A stretch of DNA of 64,000 nt from positions 186,001 through 250,000 of the forward strand of contig MCGO01000029.1 in NCBI GenBank assembly GCA_002104985.1. The letters run 5' to 3'. The DNA comes from Rhizoclosmatium globosum (Eukaryota; Chytridiomycota; Chytridiomycetes; Chytridiales; Chytriomycetaceae). How positions within the stretch are numbered: position 1 is the first letter of the stretch; the number at the start of each line of letters is the position of its first letter. Shown here in pieces: positions 1-27,110 of the stretch. The notes beneath the pieces are model-generated. The model ran no database searches. It was not told the origin of the DNA and saw only the letters and a list, made by a program, of their open reading frames with translations. A program made the translations under genes and the position numbers.

Positions 1-1665
1 AATGTATCTTTCAACATTCAGCGACTCGAAATGTACCTCGAGAGTGAATACCACAGAGTTCGGCAACTTGAAGGCCGCCACTTGCCTCAATGATGTGTTG
101 ATCAAACCCATCAATTATGCGGGATACGCCGTTGTGACAACTTGTAGGATCTTAACCTGTAAAGCACTGTCAGCTAAACTTCTCTCTCGACAGACTCGGA
201 CGCAAACTGCAAAGTCCCTGCAAAACTCCAATACTTACCATCAATCCAAACACCATGTACCCCAAGTACAATTTGCTCACAAAACAACAACCAAGAGTTC
301 ATCACAACCACTTGTGATAAGACATACAACCTGGCTGCCACATCCAAATCTGTATTTGGCCCCACCACAGCCGTAACCGTCCAGACGTACTTGGATCCGT
401 CTTGTACTTACCCAGACGATAGATTCGATATCGCGCTGGGTGTATGTTTCTCAACCAACTGGCAATACAGTGATAACTCAATTTCCTCCGCGATTGCGCT
501 CAACACGACCGATGGAGTTCGTATTTCATTCTTTTCTGGCTCTGGATGTCAAGGAAAAAGCGTTTCGCCAGATTCGATTTTGTTTCCTGCAATGGGCGTT
601 TGTACCTCGCAAGCCAGGGTTTTCTATACACCTGGAAGTGGTGGTGAGAGCTCTGGACCTTCGATTGGTCTTATTGCAGGCGGTGTAGCTGGTGGCGTGG
701 TTCTTATCTTGTTGATTGTTGGGGCAGTGTGGTATTCCCGGAAATCAAAGGCTGTGGCTGAAAGTAATGTGGATCCAGTGAGGGATGAGCGTATCAACAA
801 GACAATGACGCTGCAGTTTTCGCAATATCCTACAGAGTACTCTGGTCAGTCTTCGTATTCACCACAGCCTGTTGCACATCCAACCCAGAATTCGAGTCAT
901 TCTCAACCGACCGCCCAACCAACACAATACTCTCAATATTCTCATCAACAGCAAGCAAATCAAACGCAAGTTATTGCTTCGAATAATTTGACTGAGAGAG
1001 GATATGCCGCTTACCCTCGCTCAGTCCATGGTTCAACTCATGGCTCGCACGGGAATGTACCCACTCGTATGGGTACTACCTCCACCTCTTTCCAAGCCGT
1101 GGACACTGCGACAATTGCTTCTGCAACAATTGGAAGCGCTGCGACTTACACTGCTTCAAACATCAATGTTGTTGGGGGCTTCAATGACGATACTGCCGCA
1201 ATGAGGTAAGTTCTTAAATGGCTATAATGCAACAACTAACTCATCAATAACAGCGATAGAACTAAGCCAGCGAACGTATTCGGCGAATTCAATGCAGTCG
1301 CGATCGGTGCTGGAAACCTCCGCGTCAACAATGTCTCCAACCTCGAGTACAACAATGAATCCATAAAAGTTCATGAATCGAATTTCGGAAAGCTTGTTCT
1401 TCCGTCACTGCCAAGTGTCTGGACTGTGAACGATGTTGTTGCCTGGACACAGGAGAATGATGGGAGCAGTGAAATGGTGGCTTTTGTGAGGGAGCAAGAG
1501 ATTGATGGACGAGCTTTGTTGCTCTTAACGGAGGGTCAATTGAGTTTCTTGAAGGTTGGATCACGTGTCAAGTTCTGGCAGAAGTTGAATGAGTTGAGAG
1601 AAGTGAATGCTTCTGTGTTAGCGACCGCTGATGAGCTGGCGCCTCCTCCTGAATATGTTGCATAG
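1..1665 (+). CDS. SAM-domain receptor-like protein 1 (5' partial)
   Basis: The 3' part of a single-pass membrane protein; its start lies before the window. Exons read as 1..143, 194..1205 and 1254..1665, with introns of 50 and 48 bases. The first intron restores the conserved VVTTYSDANC strand seen in the neighbours. The remaining ectodomain keeps the cysteine pattern of the family (Y-x-D-x-x-C strands). A membrane segment with GGVAGG lies near 660-735 and is followed by WYSRKSK, which predicts an outside N-terminus and inside C-terminus. A Gln/Ser/Thr-rich linker leads to a C-terminal SAM domain (about 1385-1600) with LPSLPSVW, the QEIDGRALLLL helix and FLKVGSR. Unlike later members it has no intron inside the SAM domain. 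Receptor or adhesion function is inferred from architecture only. Confidence 0.8.
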
Positions 1666-1723
1666 ATATAAAATAGAGTTTGTAGTATTTTGTTGGGTTG
1701 TCAAAGTGGGTGATCAAAAAAAG

Positions 1724-3769
1724 ATGGCGTCAAACCTCACAGCCACAATCTTGTACGCCGGACCAGGCTGCCCTGCCAACTATGCGATCCGTATCGACTA
1801 CGCACAACCAACTTCAACTGGCTGTGGACCAGCAACGATCTCGACCAGCTGTGCAAACAATGCTGCCACGGGTCTCTCGCAACGAAGCGCCTGTGTCGAC
1901 AGCAACAATCTTGCCACCTTCGGAAACGGCTTCTTTCCGGCTGACTCATCAGGAACAACTGGCGCAACTCAGATCCAGAGCCTGATCACTGCCAACTCAG
2001 ACTGTTCGGGCCCAGTCATTGGAGGTTCCCAAGTCCGCCTTGCCTCCTGCTTCCCAACAACCCCAGACGCTACATCTTCAGCAATGTTCAACATCGACGT
2101 CCAAACCGGCTCCCTCTACCTCTCAACCTTCTCCGACGACTGCACAACTCTCACAAACTCAACCCTCTACTCCTCTTCCTCAACCCCTTCCTGCATCACC
2201 TCCAAAAACACAAAAGTCACAACCTTAAACCCGTCAGACTACGTCGCCGTAACAACCTACTCCTCAAACACATGCACAACCCCCGCAAAAATCGAGTACG
2301 CCAAACTCAGCATCCCTTGCACAGAGAACCCCGTCTGTCATCCAAACGGATACAGCGAATTCATCACAACCACATGCTCAAAGACGAACCAAATCGACGC
2401 TCTCGCAAAGACGACATTCGGCACAACAACCCCATACTTCAAGCTGTACTCTTCAGTGAACGTGGACGCAACCTGCGAATACCCTGTTCCACCCGTATAC
2501 CAAGCGATCGGCGTATGTTACCCCTCACAGCCCTTCACGCCAAAGACAGGCGGTGCACCCGTCTCGCAATCGGTTTCGTCGAGTTTGAGTGCGAATGGGA
2601 CTGCGATTTCTGTGGTTTATTATGTTGGGACGGGGTGTCAGGGTGGTGTATACAGGACTGAAGTGTATCCTGTAGATGGGACTTGTACGTCGAATGGACG
2701 GGTTGTTTATAGCCCTCAAGCGGTTGTGACTGGTACGACAGGGAACGCGAATGGTGGAGGAAATAATGGTTCTGGTGAAGGTGGATCTAGTGGTGCTCCT
2801 GTTGGTGTGATCGCCGGAGGTGTTGTTGGAGGATTGGTGGTCTTGGGTTTGATTGGATTTGTAGTGTATTATTCACGCAACAAGAAGAATTCAGTGGATT
2901 CGGAGAAGTTAATTTCGACGGGTCCTCCTGCTGCACCTCCTGGCGTACCTGGATCTTCTAGGTCTGCGAATCAAGGAGTTATTGGATCAAACAATGCAGT
3001 GTATGGTGGTTCGACCGAGTTTTCATCTCAGACTGCCCCTACATCACAGCAGACTGGATATCCATCCTCTGTTAGTGGCTCGTCTGTTAACCCAGGTGGA
3101 TTGTACTTGAGTCAAACGGCTGCATTGGCTGCCTCTCAGGTTGATACTACCACGATTGGTGCATCCAGTCACGGAATGTCCAATATCAAAGTGATTGACG
3201 GATCTACGCTTGGCTCAACTGACAATTCTGGGTAAATTTTCCTCTCCTCATTTTGACCATCCTCTTGTGATCCTTGACAATGTTGTCATGATCGCTGACA
3301 ATTTCTATGGGATCAAAATTGTTTAGCTAATTGATATTTACCTTAAAATAGTACGGAAAAGCCAAAGGACGCCATCAACATTTTCGGTGAATTGAACGCA
3401 GCCGCATTGGGTGGGGTCACTACTGTTCGCATGAGTAAGGCTGACGAAGCGAAACTCGACAAACTGAGCAAGGGAGGCCGTGAATATGAAACTCAATATG
3501 GTCAATTGATTCTCCCCACTCTTCCATCCCAATGGACTATTCAAGATGTGCACGCGTGGGTACAGGAAAACGAAGGCAGTCCTGAAATGTTGACGTTTGT
3601 AAAAGAGCAGGAGATTGACGGACGGGCACTGTTATTACTGACTCAAGAACAGCTTGGATTCTTGAAAGTTGGCGCTAGAGTCAAGTTTTGGGAGAAGCTG
3701 AATGAGTTGAGACAGATAAATGCATCGGCTTCAGATGAATTGAACCCACCACCACAATATGCAGAATAG
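1724..3769 (+). CDS. SAM-domain receptor-like protein 2
   Basis: Complete and intact family member of 641 residues, exons 1724..3231 and 3352..3769 (intron 120 bases, longer than usual). The ATG at 1724 sits 58 bases after the previous stop and starts MASNLTATILYAGPGC, which is already the first ectodomain strand, so there is no ordinary signal peptide. Residues 1-350 are the Cys-rich ectodomain. The membrane segment at about 361-388 (GVIAGGVVGGLVVLGLIGF) is followed by YYSRNKK. The linker is Ser/Gly/Pro/Gln-rich. A SAM domain at about 555-625 has LPTLPSQW, QEIDGRALLLL and FLKVGARVKFW, and the tail is Pro-rich. SAM domains usually self-associate or bind partner SAM domains, so a signalling or scaffold role at the membrane is inferred. 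It is the best intact reference for the SAM-A subtype. Confidence 0.85.
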
Positions 3770-3923
3770 ATAGACGTGTTTCTATGGAAAGCACAATAGA
3801 ACATTATTAATGAATAAATCTCTTAACGCTTTGCGTGTCTGTTTTTGTGTCTGTTTTTTTTGAATCTGGATTCTGTATTTAAAACACTCAAGCAAAACCC
3901 TCATAGCCACAACTACCCACCCA

Positions 3924-5619
3924 ATGTCGCTCGCAGCCACTCTCTTGTACGCAGACGCACAGTGCCGGGGACCACCAGCGCGTGCGGACTTCATTCTTCC
4001 CAACAACGCGAACACGGGCTGTGTGTCGAGTGCCGTGGCGTCGAAGTGTTCCGTGTCAGCGACATCGAACGGCTTCCAAACCTCGACGATTTGTGTTGAA
4101 CCAGCGACCCAGTTTAAGTTTAATCCGTGGTCGAATTCGAGTGTTGTTGTTCGCGTGTTCAAAAGCGAGAACGGCGCTGACTGTTCATCAACTGTTCAAG
4201 TTGGATTTGCACAGCCCGTCGACGCCTGTGCGCCCTCGAACGGCGTCTTTACTCGGCTTACAATCGATCCAATCTCTCGCGAACTCTACTCGGCAACCTA
4301 CTCGGACTCCGCGTGCACGGCCCTGACAAGTGTGAAGACGTATGACACCTCAGTCGCCTGTAATGCGGGCATCTCAATCTCTCTTGCAAACTACAATGGC
4401 TTCTCTGAAGTGACTTCTTATACTGGCTCCGATTGCTCTACCCCGCGAAGCTATCGTTCCAGGTCTCAGGCTCACCTTGCTCGCCAGGTCCAACCTGTCG
4501 CAAAAACAGCGACGGGGAATACGAAACGCGTGTATGCTCTACAAATCAAACCGATATCGTAACTCGTCCTTCTGCTGTATTCAAAAACGCCTCATACTTT
4601 ACTCTCCAAGAATTTACGGATGCCAAGTGCTCTCTCCCAAAGAGTTCAGCCATGCTTGTACTTGGTACCTGTTTCCCAACAACCACCTCTCTTGACCGAA
4701 GCATTCAATCTGCGTCTTCATCTCTTTCGGCTGATGGCTCTGCTGTTCGCGTCTCGTACTTTGCCACACCTGATTGCCAAGGTACTGAGTCTGGCCCATC
4801 AACATCATTCCCCACAGACGGAACGTGTACATTTGGCACAAAAGTTGTTCTTGGATCCCCTTCTCTTCGCCCTGCACCTTCTGTCACGGCAGTGCCAGTG
4901 GCTGGAATTGCGGGTGGTATCATTGCAGCAATTATTCTCTTGGGACTCGTCGTTTTGGAACAATTACTACCACCGTCGAGGAAGCACTCCTGTCGATTCC
5001 GAGAAACTGATTTCTTCAGCAGCGAGTATGGCAGGCGAGGAAACCTCATCCGTTGTCTCCATCGCTGACAGTCAATCCTCTTCTCGTGTCCCTTGGTGGG
5101 AAAAGAAGCAACCCACTCGCTCCTTATTGGCAACTGGTGAAGATGAGGAAGTTTCTTCAGTTGCTGAGAGCACTGGATCTGGATCAAAGCGATTGGTGGT
5201 TGTCAGTCGAATGACGATGGGCGGTTCCAAGAAACGCGGCGCCGATTCAGAAGTCCAACGCAAAATAACCGATAAAGAACAACTTCGCGCCATGTTTGGT
5301 GACTTGTCTCTTCCTGCACTTCCCTCCCAATGGACCTCACAAGATGTTGTTGTGTGGTGTTTCAAGAATGACGGCACTCCTGGACTCCTCAAGTATATTA
5401 AAGGTATTCCGATCTTTTTTGATTCTATTATGAGGTAACCGTACCATATTAGGTCAAAACATTGACGGTCGCGCGCTTCTTGAACTGACAGAGGACCAAT
5501 TGGCTAAAGTGAAAATTGGAAATCGTGCAAAATTCTGGGAAAAGCTGAATGAGTTGAAGCGTGTCAATTCTTCCATTCTGGCTGCTGAATCTGTGTCGGA
5601 TGTCCAGCCTGATGCCTAA
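3924..5619 (+). CDS. SAM-domain receptor-like protein 3, two frameshifts
   Basis: Third array member, exons 3924..5403 and 5453..5619. The reading frame is broken twice. Near 4440 the CCCC run is one base short, as the frame resumes with PAKLSFQVSG as in the paralogues. Near 4955 the TTTT run in the membrane segment has one base too many (or two missing). Otherwise the order is conserved: MSLAATLLYADAQC start, Cys-rich ectodomain, membrane segment with AGIAGGIIAAIILLGLVV, linker with a DSEKLISS motif, then SAM with LPALPSQW and NIDGRALLEL. A 49-base intron splits the SAM domain just before the IDG helix, at a site shared with members 4-7. The junction intron before the SAM exon is absent here. 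The SAM-A type ending KIGNRAKFWEKLNELK groups it with members 1 and 2. Both breaks are in homopolymers, so sequence error is plausible. Confidence 0.7.
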
Positions 5620-5760
5620 TCAATCTACTTTCTATGTCTCTCATTCTCTGGTGTTACCTCCCCTCATACCCTTTTAACCCTCATGTTAATTATAAATGAA
5701 AGTTCCAACTGATTTTTCAAAGTTGCCTGACAAACCAAGCACAAGTACCGAAAAGGCCCA

Positions 5761-7650
5761 ATGGCAACTCAATCGCCCGTCGCTATCATCTACTTCCAAG
5801 ATGCGCATGCTCTGTGCCTGGATACATCTCGTACGTTTACAACGAAACTGGAGCGGACTGCAGCTCCGCCGACATCAACGACTGCCAACCTTTCCCAGGC
5901 ATGACAAATTGGTGGGGAAAGACTGTTTGCGTATCAGATATCAAGGCATTTGGAAACAGTATCTTTGGATCAAACACAGTCCAGCTGCAACTCCTCCAAA
6001 CCGGTCCAGGCTGCAAATCAAGTCCAACCGCTGGTCAACAGTTTGCCTTAAACCAGTGCACTCTCGTTAAACCAGGATCTTTATCCACCGCTGTATCCAC
6101 AAAGGTCATCATCGACCCATCAACAACCAAAGTCTATGGACAACCTACTCCGATCCAAACTGCCAAACATACCTAGACGCATACCCAATTCCAAACAGCC
6201 CCGACATATTCTGCCTCTCAAACCAATACTCCTCGACAATCCTAAACTACTCCAAAAAACTCTCCCTCAAAACCATTTACTCCTCAGATTCCTGTAAATC
6301 CCCTGCCCGTATTTCATACGACTCCGTGTCTTCCTGCACGTCTTCAACACAGTGCACATCCTCAAACACCACAGAATATTCAACAACAGAATGTACATCC
6401 GTATACGACCTCCCCAAACTCTCTCAACAAGCCTTTCCCGGGCCATACTTTATATACCAGCCATACTTGGACGCGAAATGCGCGACCCCACTTCCACAGC
6501 AAGCCATCGCGTTGAACACGTGTTTCAGTGTGACACTCGCGTCAGGGGCGACACGGTTCTTGAACGCTACGACGGCAGATGACAAGAGTGTTTTGATGCA
6601 ATGGTATGACGCGACAGGGTGTCTTGGGGATCCTGTTTCAGTTGAATTTTTTTCTGGGGGTGGAGAATGTGTTCCGGGGAAGGGTGAGGTGTTTTATTCT
6701 GGGTTGGGTGATGTTGGGGTTGTGTCAACATCCGTTGGGAGTGGTGTTGGAGTTGCCATGAATTCAACTGATTCTGGTGGAATGGGGTTCCTGTCGGTAT
6801 TATTGTTGGAGGTGTTTTGGAGGTTTGTTCTTGCTGGCTGTTGTTTTGTTTGTGGTTTGCTGTTGTGCAGCGAGGAGTCAGAGGAGGAAGTTAAGGGAGG
6901 CAGCGATTTTGCGGTTGATTCTGCTGGGCCTAAACGATCGTTCACGATTCTTCCCGCAAGTATGACAATCAGGAATGCAAGGACTATGTTGAGGAGACTA
7001 CTGTGTTCCGATTTCCCTTTTTGAACGGTACTTTGAGTACAACAGCATCCGCGCCTCGTTATTCCATGGCAACTGCGACGATCCTGTCAAGTGATGAACC
7101 CGATTTCATGACGTCTAGAGGAGTTACTACGAGGTGTTTCTGCGATATCTGCTTTGAATGATCGTTACTCAACCTAAACACTGATATTACAGGGTAACAG
7201 AAAAAGAATCTCAAGGAGTCGACATGTTTAGAACCATGAACACACTGCAATCATCATCAACGGCATTCACGTCCAAGGAAAGCGCAGGTGTCTCAAACCG
7301 TGCATCCGAATACACCATGTTTGGAGACTTGTTATTACCCGTCTTGCCATCTGACTGGACAGTTGAACACGTGTCAGAATGGGTTGTTGGGAATGATGGA
7401 ACGTATGAGATGCTTGAGTATATTCATGGTAACTTCATTGTACTCTTTCAAATGGTTTGATATGAACCGGTCTTTTGTAGAGCATGGAATCGACGGGCGT
7501 GCCTTGCTGTTGTTGAATGTGGATGATTTCAGCTTTCCAACAAAGGGACGGCGGATTCGGTTTCAAGATGCACTGGATAATTTGAGAACTCTGCAAACGA
7601 CGCATTCCGCCCAAACAGATCCCTCCCTCTCCCTTCCTTCTTATTCTTGA
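5761..7650 (+). pseudogene. SAM-domain receptor-like protein 4, six frameshifts
   Basis: Homology to the neighbours can be followed end to end, but the first exon (5761..7133) changes frame six times, near 5807, 6138, 6785, 6820, 6890 and 6958. Every step fits loss of one base, and the net shift returns to the frame of the next exon. Later exons 7193..7428 and 7481..7650 are intact and encode the SAM domain (LPVLPSDW, IDGRALLLL, FSFPTKGRRIRF, SAM-B subtype). The start MATQSPVAIIYF, the Y-x-D-x-x-C strands, the membrane stretch (GVPVGIIVGGVL then GGLFLLAVVLFVVCCC) and a basic stop-transfer are all recognisable. It is either a decaying copy or a badly called stretch. The intact SAM and splice sites, and the purely one-base losses, argue for the second. 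Confidence 0.6.
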
Positions 7651-7733
7651 AGCAGAATTTGAAAAAATTTGAACGCGGCAGAACTTCAAAGTCCAAAAGC
7701 ATACCTAGCCTCTTCTCCCAGTCGCCTGCCGCC

Positions 7734-9775
7734 ATGTCTGCCCCTGTTCTAACAGCGAAGGTCATGTTCCTGGACGCTCAATGCGCGACAGTCCCGTCTT
7801 TACGTCCTTCCTGTACCCAAATGCAACCGACTGCACTCCAACCGCTTCATTTGTTAGTTCCACTTGCACCAAGTCCACAACCAACCCAGGCTACTACTAC
7901 ACGTCTCAATGTGTGCCAGATCAGTCAAAGATCGGTAGTACTTTGTGGCCAAACACTGCCACATACCAACTATTAACAACTGGTCAGGGCTGCACCAACC
8001 CAGCCCAATCGGGTCTTCAATGGCCCTTCAACACTTGCGTCAAGGTTCCTCCCAGCCTTATTGACTCCAAGAACCCTAAATACACCATCCTCTCTGTCAA
8101 AACCACAATGGATCCATCCAATGGAAACCTCTACTTTGCAACTTTTATCGATGATGCCTGCAAGACAAACTGGGACTACATCCCCGCAGGTTCCCCGGCC
8201 GCCCCATCCTGCTTCGAAGGCCTCAAATCAACCCTCTTCAACTACGCCAACCAACTCTCAATGAAAACAGTCTACACCTCCTCAGACTGCAAAACCCCAA
8301 CCCTCCTCACATACGAACCGATCACATCCTCCACATGCACACCAAACCCTTCTTGCTCCCCTTCAAACAATGTCGGAGAATATGCTTCCACAGCATGCAC
8401 GAAAGTAAACGACATCACCGTCAGATCGCAACAACTATTCTCAACAACCCCATACCTCACCTACCAACCCTACATCGACACAGCCTGCACAATCCCCCTC
8501 TCCGCGCAATCCATCGCCATAAACACGTGTTTCAACACCGCTGCGACGGATGGATCCCCCGGTTCGTTGAACGCGACGGTTTCAGGGGATGGAAAGACGG
8601 TTACGTTGAACCGGTATGCGGAGAAGGGGTGTATTGGAACGCCGAACCCATTTCCTGCAGATATCTTTCCGGTGGATGGGACTTGTACTGTGAAAGGGAA
8701 GGTGTTTTATACGGCGTCGGTTGCTGTGACGAGTGGGCTGGGAATAATGGGAGTACCTCGGGGAATGCGGTTTCGACTGGTGGTGGTAGCGGTAATAATG
8801 GTAGTGGTGATATCACGAATGGGGGATCTCAAGGAAGTTCTGGTCCTTCAGGAGGTGCTATTGCGGGTGGTGTTATTGGAGGCTTAGTTGTCTTGGCAGC
8901 AATTGTGTTTGGGTTCTTTTACTACAGAAACAAGGGAAAGAAAGGTCGTGCGATTCGGAAGCTGCGTCAGTACAATTGTCGACGGGAACTGAGGCACCAT
9001 TTATGGCTGCTTCAGGACCTGCGCCAAGTCAAATTCGTTCAAGACCTCAATCTGCGTTTCCGTTCCTCAATTCTTCTATTAGTAGTGTTCCAACAAATCC
9101 TTCAAACTCTCAAGCAACGGCGACTGCTACGGGTACTGGACCTGCAACCACTGCCGCATCTGCTGTCGCCGTTACTATGAGTGCGAGCAACCCAGTGACA
9201 GCAACATCTTCTGGCCCAAGGTAGACCTCTTCTTTATCGACTAGAATGTATTAATTTATCTGCGGATACAGTACCGAAAAGGAACGAGGAGTTAATGTCT
9301 TTGCCAGCATTTCGTCAGGTCCAGATGAAAAGCGTTCAGCAAGCATGTTTACGTCCTTGAATAACTTGACAATTTCAACGGCTATTCCGACAAAAGAGCA
9401 AGAAGCAGCTGCCGAAGCCAGAGCCAACAAGGAGTTGACAATGTTTGGCGACTTGTTACTTCCAGCTGTTCCAAGCGAATGGACCGTTCACGATGTTATC
9501 GAATGGGTTTCCAAGAATGAAGGGACTCCTGATATTTTGAAGTTTATTCTCGGTGAGATTTTGGTATTCTGTTTTCAATTTGGTGGCTGAACCTTTTCGT
9601 TGCAGACCAAGAAATCGACGGTCGCGCCTTATTGCTAATGAACGTTGAAGAATTCTCGTTCCCAACAATGGGTCGTCGTATGCGTTTCAAAGAGTCATTA
9701 GATGAGTTGCGCAGTATCAACTCAGCCAAGATCTTGTCTTCCAACTCCTATGCTCCTCCGCCATCCTATTCTTAG
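7734..9775 (+). CDS. SAM-domain receptor-like protein 5, three frameshifts
   Basis: Exons 7734..9220, 9272..9552 and 9606..9775. It starts MSAPVLTAKVMFLDAQC, with no signal peptide. Single missing bases are inferred near 7792 (CCC), 8740 (GGG) and 8954; adding one base at each gives a continuous 1490-base first exon with correct splice phase. The ectodomain has the family Cys pattern with CKTP and CSPSNN segments. A Gly/Ser/Asn-rich stretch precedes the membrane helix (AGGVIGGLVVLAAIVFGFFYY, then RNKGKKGR). The linker is Ala/Thr/Ser-rich. The SAM domain has LPAVPSEW, DQEIDGRALLLM and FSFPTMGRRMRF (SAM-B) and is split by a 53-base intron. The short tail PPPSYS resembles other SAM-B tails ending PSYS. 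Confidence 0.72.
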
Positions 9776-9905
9776 AAAATCTCTTATCGTTATTAAATAA
9801 AGCGGATACATTTTTTACTGATTGACCTGCATTTAGTTCATAGTATCCTGATGCAACGAATGAAAACAGTCATTCCATCATTCCAAAAGAAACAAATCAT
9901 AGAGA

Positions 9906-11040: not shown

Positions 11041-11211
11041 TTCAAGTACACTTGGGGTTAGAGATCGCAGTGGAAGTTCTGCTTGAATAGGAGGTATAAT
11101 AGAGCGCGAATAAACAGATTTCAACTGTAGGATTGCAGTTGAGGTTCAGGAGGATTCAAATACGATAGTGTTTAAGGGATTCTTAAACACTCTCATGCAA
11201 AAATCCAACAG

Positions 11212-11906: not shown

Positions 11907-12044
11907 TGTTTACTCCACGCATTCTTTTAGACACCACTTAATCCACGAAGCTTCTAACCGTTCCCCCTTCAACACATGCCATAGAACCATGAACTCTACC
12001 ATCCCTTCAATCCTCCGCCGCCATACTTCATCCCCGCCACATGT

Positions 12045-12703
12045 TCACAAGCGTATCCAACACTCACGTGTCACCTCAATATCCCAACAATCCGATCCAA
12101 ACACATTCTCAGCCGCCTCATCCAAAGTCCAAAAGCAGTACTCAGGTCTGTTCAGCAAAACCCACAACTCCCCCATCGACGCCGGCCGAATCCCTCTGGG
12201 CATACTCACAGGTCTATGCGCGTCATCCAGCGGCAGCGTATACAGAGCCAACACAAGTCCCAACTCCACATCCGTCTTTGACATTGTCTTTCCCCCATCC
12301 GCCATACGAACCAACGCGGTACGCACAATGTTAGAAGCGGAGTTGTATCCGAGGGGTAGCGACGAGCCGGATTGGTTGAGGCTGTTGAGGTAGGCGATTG
12401 AGAAGGAGGGAGTGTTTGGACCTGTGTGGAGGGCGCAGTCTCTGAGAGGGATGTTCCGTGTGTGTGAAGCATGAGGGATGAGTGGACTGGAAGTTGGTCT
12501 TGGGTTGATGAAGGAGAGGAAGGAGAGGTTGAAGGGATAGGGAAGATGAAGAGGGAGACGAGGGCGATGGTTCCACTTGCGTCACAGCATGTTACGTAGT
12601 GTTTTTGATGTGCTGGTTGAGGAAGTGTTTTTGAGTTTAACAAGTGGCGGAGTTGACGGGTTTCGGTGGTTTCGGTGAATGTGGCTCTGGATCTGTTTGC
12701 CAT
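12045..12703 (-). CDS. Unrecognised protein, one frameshift
   Basis: Reads as about 219 residues from ATG 12703 to a TGA at 12045 if one base is missing near 12480-12560. The N-terminal part contains HYVTCCDASGTIALVSLFIF. The C-terminal part is well formed: a segment with GYNSASNIVRTALVRMADGG, then LGLVLALYTLPLDD, RPVSMPRGIRPASMGELWVL and NRPEYCFWTLDEAAENVFG. The clean C-terminal frame and its stop argue for a real gene. I recognise no domain. It lies divergently beside receptor-like protein 6, sharing a 226-base upstream region. Confidence 0.45.
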
Positions 12704-12929
12704 TCAGTTTGTTTGGAATCCAAATTCCGGCCTGGCACCGAAACATGGCGCCTTCCTTCCAGTTTATCCTATCCAATGGGAGAAATTTAAGAGGTTGATG
12801 GATTGATCGTTGGAGAGGAGAGGGCTTGATCAAGGAGAGGGTTGCACTGTATGAGATTATTGATTAGAATAGAAACGTCGAGAGGAGATCGCTTACCAAA
12901 CGAGTTCAGCCTCAAAAACCTCTTCCCAA

Positions 12930-14923
12930 ATGTCGAACACCAACCTCGCCGCCCTGGTATATCACCAAGATGCGGCGTGCACAAGTCCGCAGAGTCTCTT
13001 CTACACAAACCAAAAGGGATCCGGCTGTTCCATCGGGGACACTGTCACTGCACACCAGTCAGTGCGTACCCAGGTTGGTACGTGGCGGCAACGTGCGTCC
13101 CTGCGAACGAACTCGCAACAAACACAAACACGTGGCCAAATGATGCTCAGTTTCAGAACTTGGTCAAGGCAGTGCGTGTTCGGGCGATGCAACTGGCGGG
13201 ACTCAGTTCCCACTTGGGCGATGTGTTCCCTTGGCCAAAGGAATGCTGCCTTCTCCGACTGGCGACGGCACTTTTGCTCTCTCAATGAAGGTGCGTCTCT
13301 CCTCGTGAATCGTTGTGATCTCATACCCAATCTTTTCTCAATACAGGCAACAATCGACCCCTTATCCCCAAACTTGAACTACTTCTGGTCTTTATATACC
13401 GACTCCGCATGCACAACCTTCCTCATTGATCAATCAGGAAACCTCCTCTCAAATGGAAAGGGTCTTAACCCTGACACTCTTGGTGTCAACAATGCTCCAG
13501 GCTGTTATGCAAACCACCAAGAGACAGTCCTCAACTACGACAAGTCGAAACAATCCCTCTTGACGGCATATACCGGTTCAGATTGCAAAACAGCTGCCAA
13601 AGTTACAGTGAACCCAACATATTCCAATAATTGCACAGACGTCCCAACTTGCACACGGGACCCTACAACGGGAGAATATTACACGCGCTCGTGTTCATCA
13701 AGTCATCTACAGATCTCACTTCACGAACCCAATCCCTTTTCCCCGACGCCACAAAATACATTACGCTCAAACAATTCTCAGACAACCAATGCTTCATCCC
13801 CCTCACTTCCCAAACAATTCTTCTTGATACGTGTTTTCCAGGCGGAGGTATTGGAAACTCTGTGAAGGCTACTATTTCCGATGCTGGAATTAAACTCTCG
13901 ACGTTTAAGGGTACGCTGGGGTGTGTCGGAACTAGCACTGATTTGTTGCTTCCAATCGATCAGAGTTGTACGGTTGGTGTGGGTATGAGTGTTCTTGCAG
14001 TTACCAAAAACCAGTTGGCGACAGCTGTAATTACTGGAACCGCTCCATCTCCTACACCTGTGGCTAAGAGCGATAATGGAGGCTCTAGCGTGCCTGTTGG
14101 GGCTATTGTCGGGGGAGTCGTTGGTGGTCTTGTCGTTCTCTGTGCAATTGGATTTGCTGTTTGGTATAGCCAGCGGAAGAAACGTGCTGCTGCTGACAGT
14201 GGTAAAAGCGAGTCAGAAGCTGCGGAAAGTGTACGTGGAAGTAGTCGATTCAGATATGCGGGCTCGTCTATTCTTACCGGGGCCACATCTCGGCCTGCGA
14301 CTCGTCAAGAATACCATGCTCCAACGGCACAAGAGCAAACGCAGCCATCAGGATATGCGCAATCAACTGCCATTAATTCTCAGCAGTCTCATATGGGTAC
14401 CGCGCATGTTTCTTTGGCAACGAGGTAAGTGAAAGTTTGGGCGATAAACGTTTCTAACTCTCACTGGATACAGAGATGAAAAACAAACGTCGCGACTTTT
14501 TACGGATATGACAGAGGTTGCGTCTAATATTGGTGACGCGTGGTCTTCAAAGTATCTTCAAACCACGACACAAGGCGACAATTCTTACACCATGTTTGGC
14601 GATTTATACCTTCCAGACACTCCTAGCGTTTGGACTGTCAATCAAGTCGTACAATGGGTCCAAAGAAATGAAGGGACCCCAGAGATTCTCTCTTTCATTC
14701 AAGGTGATTTTAAATTGGACATCCTTGCAATTTTCAATCCCTAATCTTCCTGCTTATAGAACAAGAAATTGATGGCAGAGCATTGCTTTTGATTAGAGAA
14801 GATGATTTGGCTTTCCCAACAGTTGGTCGGCGTATGCGATTTAGAGAGGCGCTTGATGCATTGAGAAGAATCAACGAAGCTCGAGTCCATGCAGCTGCAC
14901 CCCTTCCTTCTTATTCTGGATAA
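12930..14923 (+). CDS. SAM-domain receptor-like protein 6, three frameshifts
   Basis: Exons 12930..13290, 13347..14424, 14474..14703 and 14760..14923. Start is MSNTNLAALVYHQDAAC, again without a signal peptide. One missing base each is inferred near 13046, 13158 and 13698; adding them gives correct splice phase in both affected exons. A 56-base intron (13291..13346) interrupts the ectodomain right before ATIDP; the closest paralogue (protein 7) lacks it, so intron gain or loss occurred inside the array. The membrane helix is GAIVGGVVGGLVVLCAIGFAVW followed by YSQRKKR. The linker is Ser/Ala/Gln-rich. The SAM domain is type B (LPDTPSVW, QEIDGRALLLI, FPTVGRRMRF) with the shared internal intron, and the tail ends PLPSYSG. 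Confidence 0.72.
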
Positions 14924-15084
14924 TTCTTCTTTTTGTTTCCTCATATTATATTAAAGATATACCTCATAACATACTTCTTTTCAAGTGGCAGTGCGCAATT
15001 GGAGATGAACAAAATCTCTTCACAAACCAACTGTTCTCTGCCCAAGGCAGTTGTCCAGTCCTCTCATCCTAGCCAGGCATTCAA

Positions 15085-17019
15085 ATGGTCGTACCAACTG
15101 GCTTTAGCTTCTATCAAGAGGCGCAGTGTTCCAGCCCACTTCTTCTCGTTTACTCAATAGGCAATGGCACCGATTGCACCCCCGAAATTGAGACGCCAAC
15201 ATGCACACAGGACCCAAAGCGACCTGGATGGTACTACAAATCTGCGTGCGCAACAGAGGGGCTTATCACATTCGGTAACAAGTACTTCCCAAACATTGCT
15301 CAATACCAGTCGATGCAAACGGGTCTCGGAGGATGCGATGCTGATGTTCTCGGTGGATACCAATTCCCTTTCGGTGCCTGTGTCCGAGTACCTTCTCAAA
15401 TGATTGATCCTATTGGTGGCTATCCAATTCTGTCCATGAAGGCAACAATCGACCCATCATCACCCCTTTTGAACTATTACTGGGGCTTGTACACTGACGC
15501 TACATGTACAACGTTCTTGGTTGATCAGTCTGGAAACCTTCCCACTCCATCCAATCCAAACCCCAATCCACTTGGAGTCAACAACTCTCCTGGCTGCTAC
15601 GACAATCATAAACAAAGGGTCTTAAACTTTGGAAAGAAGTTTGCCGGCACAACTGTCTATTCAGGACCCGACTGCAAAACTCCTGCGAAACTGTACTATT
15701 CAACTGTTTACAATACAACCTGTTCCGACGTTTCAACTTGCACACAAGACAGTACAACCGGAGAATGGTACACATCAACTTGTTCGGACTCATACGACCT
15801 CAGTCTCAAAACAGCTACAACTTGGCCTGACGCCACCAAATACATTTCATACAAAAAGTTCAACGATGTTCAATGTTACAGTCCTCTCAGCTCGGAGAAT
15901 ATTCTCTTGGATACTTGTTTCCCATCTGGTGGACTTGGGAACTCAGTCAAAGCTTCGATTTCTGTGCTGGGAATTAAATTGACCACGTATACTGGCTCGC
16001 AAAGCTGTACTGGCTCGTCTTCGGACTTAATTCTGTCGATTGATCAGACTTGTACGCTTGGAGCTGGCTCGAGTGCACTTGCTGAAACCAAGAATGCTTT
16101 GGCGAAAACGGCTCCAAGTGTTTTATCCACACCTGCTCCGATCACTCCTGTAAAGAACGAGAGCTCTGGTCCCTCTGTTGGGTTGATTGCTGGAATTGCA
16201 GCTGGAGTTGTTGTCGTACTTGCGGCAGTTGGGTTCTTTGTGTGGAGTAGAAAGAACAAGGTTTCTCAAGAGCCTGGAATTCAACTCGTTAATGGCGATG
16301 TGTCGAGAAAAAATGGAACTACGTTTGGAAGAAGCTTTAGCTTGGGTCAAGAAAGTTCAACCGTCGATTCGCCACCACGTGCAGCCCCAACTACGTACAG
16401 CTCGATTCCGGCTCCCATGGGAACAGTTCGAGCCTCCGAGAGCGGAAACCCATCGATATTCCATTCTACTGATCAATCATCCATGTCTGTGATTCATTCA
16501 ATGGGCACCAGGTGTGTGTTGATTCATTACCAAAAACATCGAAACTAACTCTTTGTAGTCGCGAAGAGAAGCAAGGAAGCTCCAATTTATTTTCAGGTCT
16601 CAACGATGCAGTGTCGGACAATTCTCGATCTGCAAAGCACCGTGAAGCTTACCGTCAAGATGGATATGCAATGTTTGGCGAATTGGAGCTTCCAGATACT
16701 CCCAGCAATTGGAGCGTTCAGAATGTTATTCAGTGGGTGGAAAAGAACGAAGGAACTCCAGAGATTCTGCGTTTCATATATGGTTTGTTACATCACACTC
16801 TAAATTCGATAATAGTATTCACGCTATTTTCCTGCAGAGCAAGAGATTGACGGACGCGCTTTGCTTTTGATGAAGGTGGAAGAGTTCTCTTTCCCTACTA
16901 TTGGACGTCGTATTCGTTTCAAAGAAGCTCTTGAATCGTTGAGAAGCATTAACGAGAACCGGTTGAGGACGTTTGCTCCACTTCCTTCCTTCTCTGAGGC
17001 AACTGGATTGCCACAGTGA
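15085..17019 (+). CDS. SAM-domain receptor-like protein 7
   Basis: Intact SAM-B member, exons 15085..16511, 16559..16782 and 16838..17019. Residues 1-355 form the ectodomain with the complete strand series (SFYQEAQC, GLYTDATCTTF, TVYSGPDCKTPAKL, KFNDVQCYSPL), plus C-x4-C-like pairs such as CSDVSTC. The membrane segment is at about residues 362-386 (GLIAGIAAGVVVVLAAVGFFVW) and is followed by SRKNK. The cytoplasmic linker is Ser/Pro-rich. The SAM domain has LPDTPSNW, QWVEKNEGTPEILRFIY, EQEIDGRALLLM and FPTIGRRIRF. It is the cleanest reference for the SAM-B subtype. It converges on the TMEM42-like gene, whose end is 50 bases away. Confidence 0.87.
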
Positions 17020-17068
17020 ACAATATTTCGATGACTTGAGACACCGCATTTAGAAAATATTAGAAATT

Positions 17069-17567
17069 CTATTCCGTTTTCTTTGACCGTGTTTTCATTG
17101 CATGTTTCTTTGGTGTTTGTTGTTGAGTGTCGCCCTGTGTCATTAACGCTGTTCCAGCAAGCACAAATCCTGCTCCAACCCACCACCTTACTGATAATTC
17201 CTCTTGAAAGATGATAAATCCCATCAGCGCCTATTTTTGAACGTCAGGCTCTGAAAGGGTCACCGGTTGGAGTTTCAATACATACCGATGCAATCATATT
17301 TGCGCTGTTGTTCAATACGCTCACTGCAGCCGAGGAAGGTGATGAGCTGAGGGCTCGAGTGAATGTGGACCACATGAGGACATTGCAGCCAATAACAAGC
17401 GGGAGCAGAATGAGTTTGGGTGAAATCCAGTCAAGTGACGATGGAAGGAAACTCAGAGGTTCATTCGAGAAGGATGATGATAATAGTTTTGCAAAGAGAG
17501 TGGATCCTGCGGCGAATAGGCCAGATGTGATTGATAGGACAAAGTTTGTTCGCTTTTGTTTTGGCAT
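17069..17567 (-). CDS. TMEM42/EamA-like small membrane protein
   Basis: Two exons (17567..17286 and 17230..17069, 55-base intron) give 147 residues. Four hydrophobic segments are visible: LSITSGLFAAGSTLFAKLL, LILLPLVIGCNVLMWSTFTRAL, AVSVLNNSANMIASVALMGFII, and VRWWVGAGFVLAGTALM. The order, the N(x)SANM segment in helix 3 and the final W-x-G-x-x-L-x-x-x-G-x-x-L helix match half-size EamA/DMT-type proteins of the TMEM42 group. The C-terminus is Lys-rich (KKHAMKTRSKKTE), perhaps an ER retention or cytosolic tail. Family known, substrate unknown. Confidence 0.75.
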
Positions 17568-17702
17568 CTTTCTTAGCTTCTATTTATTTGTTGCTTATCG
17601 CACACTTGAGTATGAACCAAATATTGAATTCGTGATAATTGGATTTTGAGAGCAAAAGTCTGGCAAAAGAACTGTGTTTTCTGGAACATTGTTTAGACAC
17701 AG

Positions 17703-18929
17703 ATGTCGCCCACTCTTATAGCGGGCATTGCTTACTCTGACAGCAACTGCAAGTCGCCGATTCGAATCGACTATACCTCAAACACAACCGACTGTAACCC
17801 TGCCGCGATATCATCCCAATGTTCAAAATCTCAAAGTACTGGGGCTTATTTCACCACAGCCTGCGTCAACGACACTTCAACTTTTGGCGATAACTATTGG
17901 CATGACAAAACAATGCAATATCAAAGTCTTAACGCTGGGCAAGGTTGTGGAGGGGCAATCATCAGCGGCGTTCAATACCCTGTCGGATCTTGTGTGCCTG
18001 TCCCAAATGCAACAGGAGACTTGCACTACGAAAAGGTTCTTATAAACGCAACCGATGCATCTGTATCTTGGATGAAGTTTTCGGATTCATCATGTTCCAC
18101 GCTCACATCACTCGAATCTCAGGGTGTTAGACCACAGAACTCGTGCATCTCTTCATTCAACAAAGTCTCAATCCTTAATAATAACGGTGTGAGAGTCGTC
18201 ACAAGTTTCTCAGGCCTAGATTGCAGCACCCCGATTCACATTGGCTTTGAAGTTGCTTTGACAAAATGTGAAGCTGCAGGACCTCAATGTTCTTTCGACC
18301 TGGATACAAATTCGTACTTGACGGTGTCATGTCCGCAGACTTACGATTTAACAAATTTGGTTGATGAGATTTCCCCTGATTCAACTTATATCACGATTCA
18401 GTCTTACACGGACCTCATCTGTGGTGTTCCTTCATTAACAGAAACGATTCGCATTGGATCGTGTTTGAATATAACGACTGCCGGAACTGGCCTGGCAGCA
18501 AATTCAGTCAAGGCTGTACTTTCAGCGGATGGTTCATCTGCCTCCTTGATTTATTACTCTAGCTCTACTTGCGATGGGTCATCTATTTCATCAAACCTTT
18601 ATCCAACGAACGGGGGATGTACTTCATTTGGTAAAGTGCTCTCCGTGATGAAGGGAGTTCCACATTCAGATGGAGGAAGTAAACCGTCTTTTGCTGCGAT
18701 ATTTGGAGGAGGAGTAGGGGGATTAGTTGCGTTGGCATTGCTTGTGACAGGATTCTTTTGTTGGCGGAAACGACAACGCGAGAAGGGAGTTTCTATAATG
18801 CAAGGAGAAGCTCCTAGGACTGGCAACGTCGAAATAGGCACAAATGCTGTTGAGCAAGCTGGTACTCAATCAGGGTTTATGGTAGCGTCAAGACAAAAAC
18901 CAGTGAAGCGGTTTTCAATGTTCACATAA
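17703..18929 (+). CDS. Receptor-like protein 8, no SAM domain
   Basis: Single exon, 408 residues, intact. It starts MSPTLIAGIAYSDSNC directly with the first ectodomain strand. Cysteine spacing follows the array (YSDSNCKSPIRIDY, KFSDSSCSTL, SFSGLDCSTPIHI, SYTDLICGVPS, YYSSSTCDG). The membrane segment at about 330-355 (AIFGGGVGGLVALALLVTGFFC) is followed by WRKRQREK. The cytoplasmic tail is only about 50 residues and has no SAM domain; no SAM-like exon is found before the next gene. Closest to protein 9, with which it shares the SPIRIDY start, the FGGGVGG helix and the tail GFMVA. Confidence 0.82.
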   Translation: MSPTLIAGIAYSDSNCKSPIRIDYTSNTTDCNPAAISSQCSKSQSTGAYFTTACVNDTSTFGDNYWHDKTMQYQSLNAGQGCGGAIISGVQYPVGSCVPVPNATGDLHYEKVLINATDASVSWMKFSDSSCSTLTSLESQGVRPQNSCISSFNKVSILNNNGVRVVTSFSGLDCSTPIHIGFEVALTKCEAAGPQCSFDLDTNSYLTVSCPQTYDLTNLVDEISPDSTYITIQSYTDLICGVPSLTETIRIGSCLNITTAGTGLAANSVKAVLSADGSSASLIYYSSSTCDGSSISSNLYPTNGGCTSFGKVLSVMKGVPHSDGGSKPSFAAIFGGGVGGLVALALLVTGFFCWRKRQREKGVSIMQGEAPRTGNVEIGTNAVEQAGTQSGFMVASRQKPVKRFSMFT

Positions 18930-19064
18930 TAAATAGAAGACAAGGTGGAAGGAATTCTCTAGTATTCAAAGTACTATTAAATTATCGTTATTGGATGGCT
19001 TAATCGTTGTATTTCCAAAAATAGAGATAGGGGAAACAAGAGGGCAAAACTGAAGTTCGACCAA

Positions 19065-20363
19065 ATGCCAGTCGTCACAGCCCTTATTGCATTCAGTGAC
19101 AGCTCGTGCCATGACCCTATTCGAATCGACTACTCATTTCCTAAGTTTACTGACTGCAATCCTGCCACTGTCACGAGTGCCTGTGTCAAATCAGGTGAAA
19201 ACGGATGGTACTTTAAGACCTCGTGTGTCACCGACATTTCGACGTTTGGCGACGAATACTGGCACAACCACACGTCGCAATATCAGAGTCTCAATGCTGG
19301 CCAGGACTGTGCAGCTGATCCAACCGAAGGCGTTCAATACCCTCTCTCACAATGCACTCCGATCCGTCACGGAAACGCTACCTACTATGAAAAAGCTGTT
19401 GTCGATCCCGGCAGTGGACAGCTTTATTGGCTCAGATATCCAGACGAAGGATGTCTCGCTGCAACAAGCAAAGTCGAAATCTATGGTTCGGAGCCCCTCA
19501 AAACAGCGGCTTGCATTGCATCTTTCAACAAAGTATCTGTCTTGAACTATAACGGATACAAAGAGCAGATTATATATTCGGGATCCGACTGCAAGACTCC
19601 TATTATGTTTGCCTCTGACATTGCCCAAACCGAATGTGTTGCAACAGGTTCAACCGCGTCTGCCGGAGGTCACAAACGAAGCGGTGCTGAAAGTTCTGTA
19701 GTTGCATCAGTCACCGCGGAATGTTCATGGAATGCTGACTTGGGAGTGTATGAATCTGTAACTTGTTCAAGCAAAAACAGGTTCGATGATATCACTCAGA
19801 GCGCTTTTGCCATGACATCAACTGTAGTTACAGTTCAGAGTTATGAAGATACAATCTGCAATATCCCAAAAAGCTCGCAAGCATATGCAGTTGGAGCTTG
19901 TTATCACTGGAACTCGACAACGAACGGAATTTCCTATGGCTCAGCAAACCTTCTTATTTCCCCTGATGGACTATCTGTCGCCTTGAACTATTTTTCGGAT
20001 GCTTCGTGCAAGACCCAAGTTCTGTCCAACTCGTTTCCCACTAATGGTGCCTGCACGCTATTTGGAAAAGTTCTTGCAGTGATCAAGAATACACCTAAAG
20101 TTAAATCAAACCCACCAAACTTTGGAGCTGTATTTGGGGGTGGATTGGGAGGCTTGATTCTCGTAACGATTCTTGTCTTGTTTGCTTTTCATGTGCGAGC
20201 AAAGAAGTCACGAGCAAGAGAAATGGCACACACAGGTGGCGATGTTACCAGAACTGGAACGGGATCCCAATTGCAGGAAGTTTCAACAGGAATCGAGCCC
20301 AAGATACGACCGCACGGCTTTTTGGTTGCCGGCAAGAAGGAGAGCGCAAGCAATATTGCATAA
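19065..20363 (+). CDS. Receptor-like protein 9, no SAM domain
   Basis: Single exon, 432 residues, intact. It starts MPVVTALIAFSDSSC with no signal peptide. The ectodomain parallels protein 8 (FSDSSCHDPIRIDY, YSGSDCKTPIMF, SYEDTICNIPK, YFSDASCKT), with an extra Ser/Gly/Lys-rich insert near residue 200. The membrane segment at about 355-380 (VFGGGLGGLILVTILVLFAF) is followed by HVRAKKSRAR. The tail is about 55 residues and ends near GFLVAGKKE, similar to the GFMVA of protein 8, so the two look like a recent tandem duplication. No SAM exon follows. Confidence 0.82.
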   Translation: MPVVTALIAFSDSSCHDPIRIDYSFPKFTDCNPATVTSACVKSGENGWYFKTSCVTDISTFGDEYWHNHTSQYQSLNAGQDCAADPTEGVQYPLSQCTPIRHGNATYYEKAVVDPGSGQLYWLRYPDEGCLAATSKVEIYGSEPLKTAACIASFNKVSVLNYNGYKEQIIYSGSDCKTPIMFASDIAQTECVATGSTASAGGHKRSGAESSVVASVTAECSWNADLGVYESVTCSSKNRFDDITQSAFAMTSTVVTVQSYEDTICNIPKSSQAYAVGACYHWNSTTNGISYGSANLLISPDGLSVALNYFSDASCKTQVLSNSFPTNGACTLFGKVLAVIKNTPKVKSNPPNFGAVFGGGLGGLILVTILVLFAFHVRAKKSRAREMAHTGGDVTRTGTGSQLQEVSTGIEPKIRPHGFLVAGKKESASNIA

Positions 20364-20797
20364 TACCGTCTCATGGATCATAATTATATTATTCCATCCT
20401 CATTGTGGATACGTTAATAAATATTGTTTTTTATGAAACGAGTTAACGACTCAACTACCATACTTCCTTGCTCAACCATCTTGCATTGTAATGAATCCAC
20501 AAAAAGTTCCCTCAAAGAGCTTGGAGACTCTCGTAAGTGGGGTGACCATGCATATCTGCTGCGTACTTTCATAGAAATTCTCCCACTTGTTCATTGGTTG
20601 TGAGCTGCATGCATGAAGGGATGTGTATGAGGACTGTTAAACTGATGATGGAGGAGAGGATTTTATTGCATTTCAGTACTCTGTTCAGACACAGCTTGTA
20701 ACAGAATGGCTGAGCAGCTAATGTTTCTTGCATGATAATCTTCACTGTTTTGTGAATTAAATAATTATTGTGTTTTCAATCAGCTGTCAAACCGGCG
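20364..20797. other. Intergenic region before receptor-like protein 10
   Basis: About 430 bases, AT-rich. It should hold the terminator of protein 9 (AATAAATATTG near 20418) and the promoter of protein 10. I see no coding segment, tRNA or repeat. Confidence 0.5.
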
Positions 20798-21967
20798 ATG
20801 TTTGCAACAGCCCATATCCACTTTGCAGATAGCCAATGCGCCACACCATTACGTATCGACTACGCGTTCCCAAACTCAACAACATGTACACCTACCCAGG
20901 AAGCTATGTGCTCGACAGATGACTTCGGAACGTCATCTCAACACTGGTCCTGCGTGGCAGACTTGAGAAACTTTGGGACCTCCTATTTTCCAAACAAAGT
21001 AATTCATGAAAGCATTGACGATGACTGCAAAGGCGCCTCAGTCTCAGCCTTTCAAGCTCCCATGGGAACTTGCATTCCGTCAACACCAGCACCTCCCTAC
21101 ACTTTTGCAAAACTCTTTATTGATCCTACAAACGGCGCTACAATCATAACTACATACTCGGACGCGTTATGCACATCTCGAGTAAACGTCTCATCTCCAA
21201 TTTCAAAGGAATGCACCAAAACCCAACTCCTAAACTACAACGGATCCCTCGCTCTCACCACCTACACAACATCCGATTGTACAACCCCGATCAAACTCGT
21301 CCACGACACCTCAATCCCTCAACTCTGCACCTCAAACCCAACATGCACCAAAGGCACTGGCCAAGAATACACAACAACATCATGCACGAATTCCACAACC
21401 CTTGACGAAACAGCACTCAAACTCTTCTCAACCACGCCATACTTCAAATTCCAAACATTCCCCACAACTTCAGGATGCACAGGTCCCGCAGAATCAACAC
21501 AATACGTGCGCCTTGGAACGTGTTTTGAATCGTCGCCTATGGATTGGGTACACGCCATAAACACATCCTTGTCTATTGACGGACGGTATATCGTGTTTCG
21601 GTATTATGCGGGGTTTAAATGCACGGGGTGGTATGAACAGACTTTGTTTCCGAACGAGGGAGGGTGTGTGACAAATGCACGCGTGTTTTATAACACGACG
21701 TTGTTTGAGAGTGACGCGAAAGGGTTGGATATGCGTGTTGTTAGTTGTGCGGTTGTTGGTGTTTCTGTTGCGAGTTTGATTTCGTGTGGGATTTATTGGT
21801 GGTGTTGTCGTAAGACGAGGCAGGGGAAGACGAGGATCTCACGGATGAGGTGGAATCGGGTCAAGTATGACTCTTTGTTGCCTTTGCAAATGATTCCTCT
21901 GGAATCTATTGATATTACCGATTATGTGCAATCAAGTGTTAGTGTGGCTCCGGCGGCTGAAACCTAA
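20798..21967 (+). CDS. Receptor-like protein 10, no SAM domain, divergent tail
   Basis: 389 residues from the ATG at 20798; an in-frame ATG at 20768 would add ten residues. I prefer 20798 because MFATAHIHFADSQC aligns with the other starts. The ectodomain has the family strands (FADSQCATPLRIDY, TYSDALCTSR, TYTTSDCTTPIKL, YYAGFKCTG). The membrane segment at about 310-335 (VVSCAVVGVSVASLISCGIY) lacks the GGVVGG zipper and has a Cys/Trp-rich exit WWCCRKTRQ, possibly palmitoylated (inference). The 55-residue tail is basic then hydrophobic and has no SAM domain. It is the last recognisable array member. Confidence 0.8.
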   Translation: MFATAHIHFADSQCATPLRIDYAFPNSTTCTPTQEAMCSTDDFGTSSQHWSCVADLRNFGTSYFPNKVIHESIDDDCKGASVSAFQAPMGTCIPSTPAPPYTFAKLFIDPTNGATIITTYSDALCTSRVNVSSPISKECTKTQLLNYNGSLALTTYTTSDCTTPIKLVHDTSIPQLCTSNPTCTKGTGQEYTTTSCTNSTTLDETALKLFSTTPYFKFQTFPTTSGCTGPAESTQYVRLGTCFESSPMDWVHAINTSLSIDGRYIVFRYYAGFKCTGWYEQTLFPNEGGCVTNARVFYNTTLFESDAKGLDMRVVSCAVVGVSVASLISCGIYWWCCRKTRQGKTRISRMRWNRVKYDSLLPLQMIPLESIDITDYVQSSVSVAPAAET

Positions 21968-23911: not shown

Positions 23912-24099
23912 AGTATTTATGAGTATGTTATTAGTTGGACGAGGATAGTTGGACGAGGTTATGTTTTAGTACTTGCATTTGCTTTCAGTATCATTTCTTA
24001 GTTGTTATTCTACATCTATATCACTTCCAGTTTCATATTTTTGAGTTGAGATGTGTCTGTGCTTGACTTTGGCGAAACCCTTTTTTGAAATCAGGCAGA

Positions 24100-26907: not shown

Positions 26908-27110
26908 ACCTGATTCATTGGTCAATTTGCTTTACATCTATAATAAAACGAGAGGAACTTGAACATTGCCATCATATCTCAATCAGGCAGCGCGAAAATG
27001 CGAAGACTACATCAAAAATGTTACGTAATAATGATCTCAAGTTCAACTGTTGGCACGCGTTGGAGATTTGGTGAAGTTGGGAGACACGAATAACAAAACA
27101 AAAAAAAACC

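Follow-up and report, generated by a model that had tools for sequence, protein, structure and literature searches.

Single-pass receptors with a C-terminal cytoplasmic SAM domain are represented by the Eph receptors, and the SAM domains of ETV6, PHC3/Polyhomeotic, SAMD1, Scm, L3MBTL3, and SARM1 polymerise or form rings. A tandem array of ten genes for cysteine-rich membrane proteins, seven of which carry a SAM domain, is described here from the chytrid Rhizoclosmatium globosum. The array (members m1 to m10, numbered in their order) occupies positions 1 to 21967 of the window, i.e., the whole 64,000-nucleotide stretch of DNA that was analysed, which corresponds to bases 186001-250000 of a 484,643-base contig in an assembly of 56.9 Mb in 420 contigs. 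This contig is referred to as C212, and other contigs are given similar working labels. Two of the C212 proteins, BCR33DRAFT_718443 and BCR33DRAFT_307120, are named as those of R. globosum; the BCR33DRAFT tag presumably indicates JEL800 as the source strain. R. globosum is a saprotrophic chytrid fungus that lives on chitin (PMC12115818).

The cysteine-rich part of these proteins is related to the Pfam family PF11912 (CfaA_B_C, also DUF3430), which covers the Bad proteins of Dictyostelium. The published account counts 160 such proteins in dictyostelids, including 54 in D. discoideum alone, and, outside this group, single proteins in Symbiodinium and Bodo; a signal peptide is present in all described members, and Y/F/WxxxxC motifs are usual (PMC7886984). 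The same work mentions Phytophthora proteins in which a similar domain is often combined with a membrane helix and a kinase (PMC7886984).

With about an even chance of being right, the array represents a family, expanded in this lineage, of single-pass receptors or adhesins at the cell surface, with outward-facing N termini, diverged ectodomains, SAM-mediated clustering, and Nedd4/Rsp5-type turnover. The N-terminal pair of PF11912/DUF3430-type disulphide-rich beta units would face outside and bind a variable ligand, the mostly Gly-rich helix would pack helices together, and a basic stop and a linker would lead to the cytoplasmic SAM domain. The latter would cluster the receptors head-to-tail with other SAM domains of the family or with SAM-bearing scaffolds, and the C-terminal [PL]PxY motif would recruit a WW-HECT (Nedd4/Rsp5-type) ligase for internalisation. 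The SAM-less m8, m9, and m10 could act as non-clustering co-receptors or decoys. As far as can be judged from sequence, these are known domains in a combination for which no description was found; the sequence-only reading, made before this analysis, knew of no described fungal family with this layout, and none was found among the literature matches listed. That reading had also proposed surface sensing, adhesion, or self-recognition with SAM-mediated clustering, functions that we infer as possible ones. Four points go beyond it: the [PL]PxY tail, the lack of recognisable signal peptides, additional genes upstream of the window, and relatives elsewhere in the genome; the first two of these are new here.

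All ten genes are on the plus strand, and each encodes a cysteine-rich ectodomain followed by a membrane helix, which bears out the same-strand array of the sequence-only reading. An open frame from ATG to stop is present in six members (m1, m2, m7, m8, m9, and m10), and the introns of m1, m2, and m7 are of the GT-AG type and 47 to 120 bases long. The m1 gene (1..1665; introns 144-193 and 1206-1253; 644 amino acids) has its start codon 367 bases upstream of the window and is open across the window edge; it encodes the ectodomain, the membrane helix, the linker, the SAM domain, and a PPPEY tail. In m2 (1724..3769; intron 3232-3351; 641 amino acids), two eight-cysteine units are followed by the helix, the linker, the SAM domain, and a PPPQY tail. 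The same layout is found in m3 (3924..5619; SAM intron 5404-5452; tail without PPxY), m4 (5761..7650; LPSY tail; a mid-SAM intron, for which 7429-7480 is one of two possible splicings), m5 (7734..9775; SAM intron 9553-9605; PPPSY tail), and m6 (12930..14923; SAM intron 14704-14759; LPSY tail), all with frame breaks in the window copy. The next member, m7 (15085..17019; introns 16512-16558 and 16783-16837; 610 amino acids), consists of the ectodomain, helix, linker, and SAM domain and ends in LPSF, so that the tail motif is not kept. The last three, m8 (17703..18929; 408 amino acids), m9 (19065..20363; 432 amino acids), and m10 (20798..21967; 389 amino acids), are single-exon genes without a SAM domain; m9 has been annotated, with the same start, as BCR33DRAFT_718443 (P0003, 428 amino acids). 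Between m5 and m6, the row is broken by minus-strand open reading frames (ORFs), one of them with a MYND finger. The Gly-zipper helix of the sequence-only reading holds for most members, although not for m10.

The SAM domain can be read in frame in all seven of m1-m7, in five of them across a mid-SAM GT-AG intron. In Rhizoclosmatium sp. JEL0117, an annotated protein (P0001) with 97% identity to the m2 product combines the ectodomain, the helix, and the SAM domain in one model; on this ground, separate genes for the SAM and membrane exons were rejected. Together with the invariant cysteines of the ectodomains and the Pfam matches of the m1 and m2 SAM domains (see below), this identity places the observed layout far beyond chance. 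A counterpoint is the deposited protein from the C212 gene at 266 kb (P0004; 419 amino acids; locus L044:2376-3719), which stops upstream of a SAM-and-PPLY exon at L044:4059, so the annotation may miss the SAM domain. A short F[LMV]V[SA] motif, noted without a control for chance, recurs close to where the ectodomain-membrane exon ends; it was seen in several members (L035:6379-7809, L036:3231-4667, L044:2376-3719, L046:2399-3997, and L049:1942-3321) and is kept in the SAM-less m8 and m9.

Alignment of the ectodomains of 11 members, 26-42% identical to that of m8, revealed 16 invariant cysteines. What had been taken for a Cys-rich domain is indeed present but is actually a tandem pair of homologous units with eight cysteines each, exemplified by the m2 ectodomain (1724..2740, plus strand; unit 1, ~1724-2245; unit 2, ~2237-2740). 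The two halves of the alignment are homologous according to hhalign (probability 98, E value of 1.3e-12 over 148 columns, score of 68 versus a maximum of 9 in 30 column shuffles), and in the 22 half-domains, seven cysteines are invariant and the eighth is present in 90% or more. The curated PF11912 cut-off of 28.6 bits was exceeded by m8 (39.9-40 bits; E value of ~6e-10, the best match) and by one upstream member (30.1 bits). At E values of ≤0.1, this profile matched six whole ectodomains, six first units, and seven second units, out of 11 in each case, versus none of 10 cysteine-fixed shuffles of second units. Y/F/WxxxxC motifs were observed 107 times in 15 ectodomain models, compared to 22.7 expected from shuffling. 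AlphaFold2 produced a mostly beta model with blocks of 70-93 in predicted local distance difference test (pLDDT) score; a single unit alone had a mean of 86.5. Fold searches with the ectodomain and unit models against solved structures gave no clear match; they speak neither for nor against the Greek-key barrel (MiAMP1 or beta-gamma-crystallin) speculated for BadA. Given that the models were built on 11 and 22 sequences, no new fold is claimed.

Judging from these profile matches, the ectodomain is a divergent pair of PF11912 units. It shares with the described family its conserved cysteines (eight or more per unit), aromatic-xxxxC motifs, a beta-rich prediction, a large gene family, and a significant hidden Markov model match. 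However, apart from the two single protist proteins, the described members come from dictyostelids, and a signal peptide precedes every one of them (PMC7886984), whereas the chytrid proteins belong to a fungus and have tandem units, no recognisable signal peptide, a membrane helix, and often a SAM domain and PPxY. Because they lack this hallmark of the described members, the domain is considered a relative of PF11912 but not a typical Bad/Cfa member. The sequence-only reading had treated the ectodomain as an orphan and held that a match to a well-known family would speak against its proposal. Such a match was found in part, in that a family relationship exists but the described relatives are secreted dictyostelid proteins.

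For the SAM domain, the SAM_PNT cut-off of 24 bits was exceeded by m2 (34.9) and m1 (25.4). The seven SAM domains align without gaps over 67 residues at 45-76% identity, and those of m3-m7 were assigned by alignment to m1 and m2. The m2 SAM domain (3521..3730, plus strand) has relatives with solved structures in ETV6, PHC3/Polyhomeotic, SAMD1, Scm, and L3MBTL3; the solved chains matched by the chytrid SAM domains also include SARM1. By sequence, then, the chytrid domains resemble polymer-forming ones, in agreement with the self-associating type suggested previously, although ETV6, Polyhomeotic/PHC3, Scm, SAMD1, and SARM1 are not membrane receptors and the polymers of the chytrid SAM domains are only predicted. 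The Eph receptors share the single-pass organisation with a C-terminal cytoplasmic SAM domain. However, neither the kinase nor the ephrin-binding domain had a Pfam match in the chytrid exons scanned, and no Eph SAM domain was found among 58 PDB sequence matches; an Eph-like receptor was rejected for lack of a kinase. In m2, m3, m4, and m7, the mean identity is 27% for the ectodomains (those of m3 and m4 taken from the second haplotype) versus 52% for the SAM domains, so the outside has diverged more than the inside, in support of the tandem expansion that had been proposed.

Most of the SAM-bearing proteins end in [PL]PxY, such as the PPQY in the C-terminal tail of m2 (3731..3766, plus strand). 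The motif is present in 13 of 17 tails (10 PPxY and 3 LPxY) versus a mean of 0.4 after shuffling, and none of 20,000 tail shuffles reached 13. These 17 tails represent the distinct single-SAM genes that were read; haplotype copies, a broken copy of m7, a multi-SAM gene (PPAY), and a SAM gene on C374 (PPAY) were excluded. The four tails without the motif are those of m3, m7 (LPSF), and two genes of a minus-strand array elsewhere on C212 (APPY). Three WW matches followed by two HECT matches at C212:277.9-279.8 kb have the makings of a candidate Nedd4/Rsp5-type ligase, to which the tails may bind. The motif is shared with alpha-arrestins and other PPxY adaptors of Rsp5, and arrestin-SAM genes are encoded in the same genome; the chytrid receptors differ in bearing the motif themselves, with no arrestin domain.

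No signal peptide was recognised at the start of these proteins. On a plain hydropathy scale, the highest N-terminal 15-residue value is at most 1.31 in 15 models, unlike what would be expected of a type I receptor with a cleavable signal peptide, versus at least 2.2 for the membrane helix in 14; in the exon at C212:135k, no clear helix was seen. Of 36 ORF rows with a profile match in the start region, haplotype copies and overlapping loci among them, 32 have a methionine no more than 45 residues ahead of the first cysteine, and counted from the nearest one, this cysteine is residue 14-17 (23 in C235); the other four rows have no such methionine in frame. The first strand predicted by AlphaFold2 starts at residue 5, the gap to the preceding gene is as short as 58 bases before m2 and 83 before m5, and P0001, P0003, and P0004 have all been deposited with the same starts. 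Two observations count against a leaderless start. An in-frame upstream methionine in m2 opens a hydrophobic stretch, yet it sits within the last codons of m1. For m10, the copy in the second haplotype is extended in frame by a strongly hydrophobic segment that includes a methionine; this extension is absent from the window copy. All models have 16 cysteines, except for those of C212:127k and C235, with 17; m2 has 17 only when started at the upstream methionine. Exposure of an N-terminal domain does not always require a cleaved signal; neuregulin-1 is one example. The sole indication of disorder in the linker is the low pLDDT in the tail of the SAM-less m8.

The family extends beyond the window. 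Just upstream, on the same strand, there are two further members; the ectodomain has a single unit in the one and two units in the other, and a SAM domain follows in both, so the ten-gene array recognised previously is part of a longer row; no additional member was found in a further 4.8 kb. C212 also has a minus-strand array of members at 126-141 kb and solitary ones at 266 kb and 411 kb; counterparts of these lie on C27, C414, and C159. Diverged relatives were found on C235/C266, C113/C362, C164, C135, C73, and C124. The own-genome SAM search listed 85 matches; since these mix exon halves, haplotype copies, and other SAM genes, no gene count is given. Searches for homologues covered the genus Rhizoclosmatium. 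Possible partners for the window SAM domains are also encoded in the genome. Among their closest relatives outside the array family are those of a gene on C268/C381/C108 (L053:4828-6068, L051, and L052) whose product has multiple consecutive SAM domains and ends in PPAY; the LRR- and PAN-matching ORFs near it are neighbours, not necessarily parts of a single gene. A tandem set on C24/C103 has an arrestin C-domain and a SAM domain within the same ORFs, although L001 (C24:194393-197587), scanned alone, fell below the arrestin cut-off. A similar SAM set on C364 (L055, C364:66001-76000) appears arrestin-like by eye, with PPxY in some ORFs.

Elsewhere in the window, long minus-strand ORFs at 38820-46561 resemble, by eye, a retroelement of the long interspersed nuclear element (LINE) type, with endonuclease, reverse transcriptase, and RNase H-like regions. 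Two very similar ORFs on opposite strands (47866-48495 and 54421-54906) look, by eye, like an inverted duplication of DJ-1/PfpI proteins. An ORF near 30575 looks, again by eye, similar to the glycosyltransferase-2 and deacetylase ORFs that neighbour the array (see below).

Several observations weigh against the surface receptor reading. No match of the own-genome SAM search falls in m8-m10, so clustering cannot be the common function of the array, and m3 and m7 lack PPxY. The own-genome PF11912 search scored nine candidates and listed two places, one above the cut-off, because most members are too diverged for that profile. No signal peptide could be recognised in the 15 models, which leaves the entry of a disulphide-rich domain of ~330 residues into the endoplasmic reticulum unexplained, and N-glycosylation sequons are not enriched (70 versus 69.4 after shuffling). 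The charge on the two sides of the helix is equal in m9 and the m3 copy and reversed in the m4 copy. Finally, m3-m6 have frame changes in the window contig beyond what introns explain, and the ratio of nonsynonymous to synonymous substitution rates (dN/dS) between haplotypes reaches 0.39 for the linker of m1 and 0.62 for the ectodomain of m8, each from few changes. The points on the N terminus could mean that the cysteine-rich half is not extracellular: the proteins would then span a different membrane, and their N-terminal part would lie in the cytosol or inside an organelle. This placement, which fits the non-hydrophobic starts, the early first cysteine, and the agreement of three deposited proteins on those starts, is nevertheless quite unlikely: the 16 invariant cysteines and the homology to secreted proteins favour an oxidising side, and in 11 of the 14 clear-helix models, the SAM side carries more positive charge than the N-terminal side does, even if the remaining three leave the topology unsettled by charge. 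Far less probable still is a decaying, partly pseudogenic cluster. The array region is present again on C27 and C414, with aligned pieces 94.9-97.6% identical at the DNA level, and this pair was read as the other haplotype because C27 ends where C414 begins (window base 9240). In the other haplotype, C27 has open frames for m4 and for the ectodomain-helix part of m3 but broken ones for m1 and m2, whereas m7, m8, and m10, open in the window, are broken on C414; m9 is open in both haplotypes and m5 in neither, and in the m6 ectodomain the positions of the breaks differ. Given that the breaks alternate between the haplotype copies, assembly indels are the simpler reading and fit better than decay, so a pseudogene cluster was rejected; dN/dS values of 0-0.25 in 8 of 10 segments, albeit from small counts, also speak against it.

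Other explanations accept the membrane protein and differ in its task. It is unlikely that these are membrane-anchored antibacterial proteins, with the PF11912 units acting on bacteria as proposed for BadA and the SAM domain and tail only placing or recycling them. The homology of the ectodomain to PF11912 would fit, as would the rise of bacteriolytic activity in cell extracts on overexpression of BadA and its fall on depletion, but purified BadA alone did not lyse bacteria (PMC7886984). Moreover, the similarity is at the domain level only, and a killer protein has no obvious need for a conserved SAM domain and PPxY tail. Equally unlikely are sensors or anchors for the substrate (chitin) or for the fungus's own wall, which zoospores or rhizoids would use on the remains of arthropods. 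A few kilobases from the array (24067-28234), there are ORFs for one glycosyltransferase-2 and two polysaccharide deacetylases, and zoospores of this chitin-dwelling fungus are chemotactic to N-acetylglucosamine (PMC12115818). However, gene neighbourhood is weak evidence in fungi, and the Pfam matches listed for those ectodomains that were scanned include no carbohydrate-binding family. The counting-factor-associated proteins of dictyostelids, from which PF11912 takes its Pfam name, suggest by analogy a role in recognition between cells or in density sensing, but this seems very unlikely. Such a role would agree with tandem expansion and diverged ectodomains, but the haplotypes show no sign of diversification, with their high DNA identity and mostly low dN/dS, and no literature on the function of CfaA-C was found.

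Among the systems known to us, the nearest architectural precedent is that of the Phytophthora proteins. Compared by description only, they have the conserved aromatics and cysteines, a membrane helix, and a cytosolic signalling domain, but a kinase takes the place of the SAM domain, and a signal sequence is present (PMC7886984). A bolder proposal, with a low chance of being right, is that of a previously undescribed, leaderless class of fungal receptors with outward-facing N termini, expanded in chytrids, as a kinase-free counterpart of animal SAM receptors. Their paired DUF3430 ectodomains would recognise bacteria or other cells, mixed SAM polymers would be shared with tandem-SAM scaffolds and arrestin-SAM adaptors of the same genome, and their own PPxY tails would provide the shut-off. 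The array would also put a DUF3430-type ectodomain on a fungal membrane protein, compared to the dictyostelids and the two single protist proteins listed for that family (PMC7886984), which raises the question of how such a domain gets outside without a signal peptide. For the sensing of substrate, bacteria, and each other by chytrid zoospores, this array offers concrete genes to study, in which an ectodomain of a recognisable family is joined to candidate elements for clustering (the SAM domain) and turnover (the tail motif).

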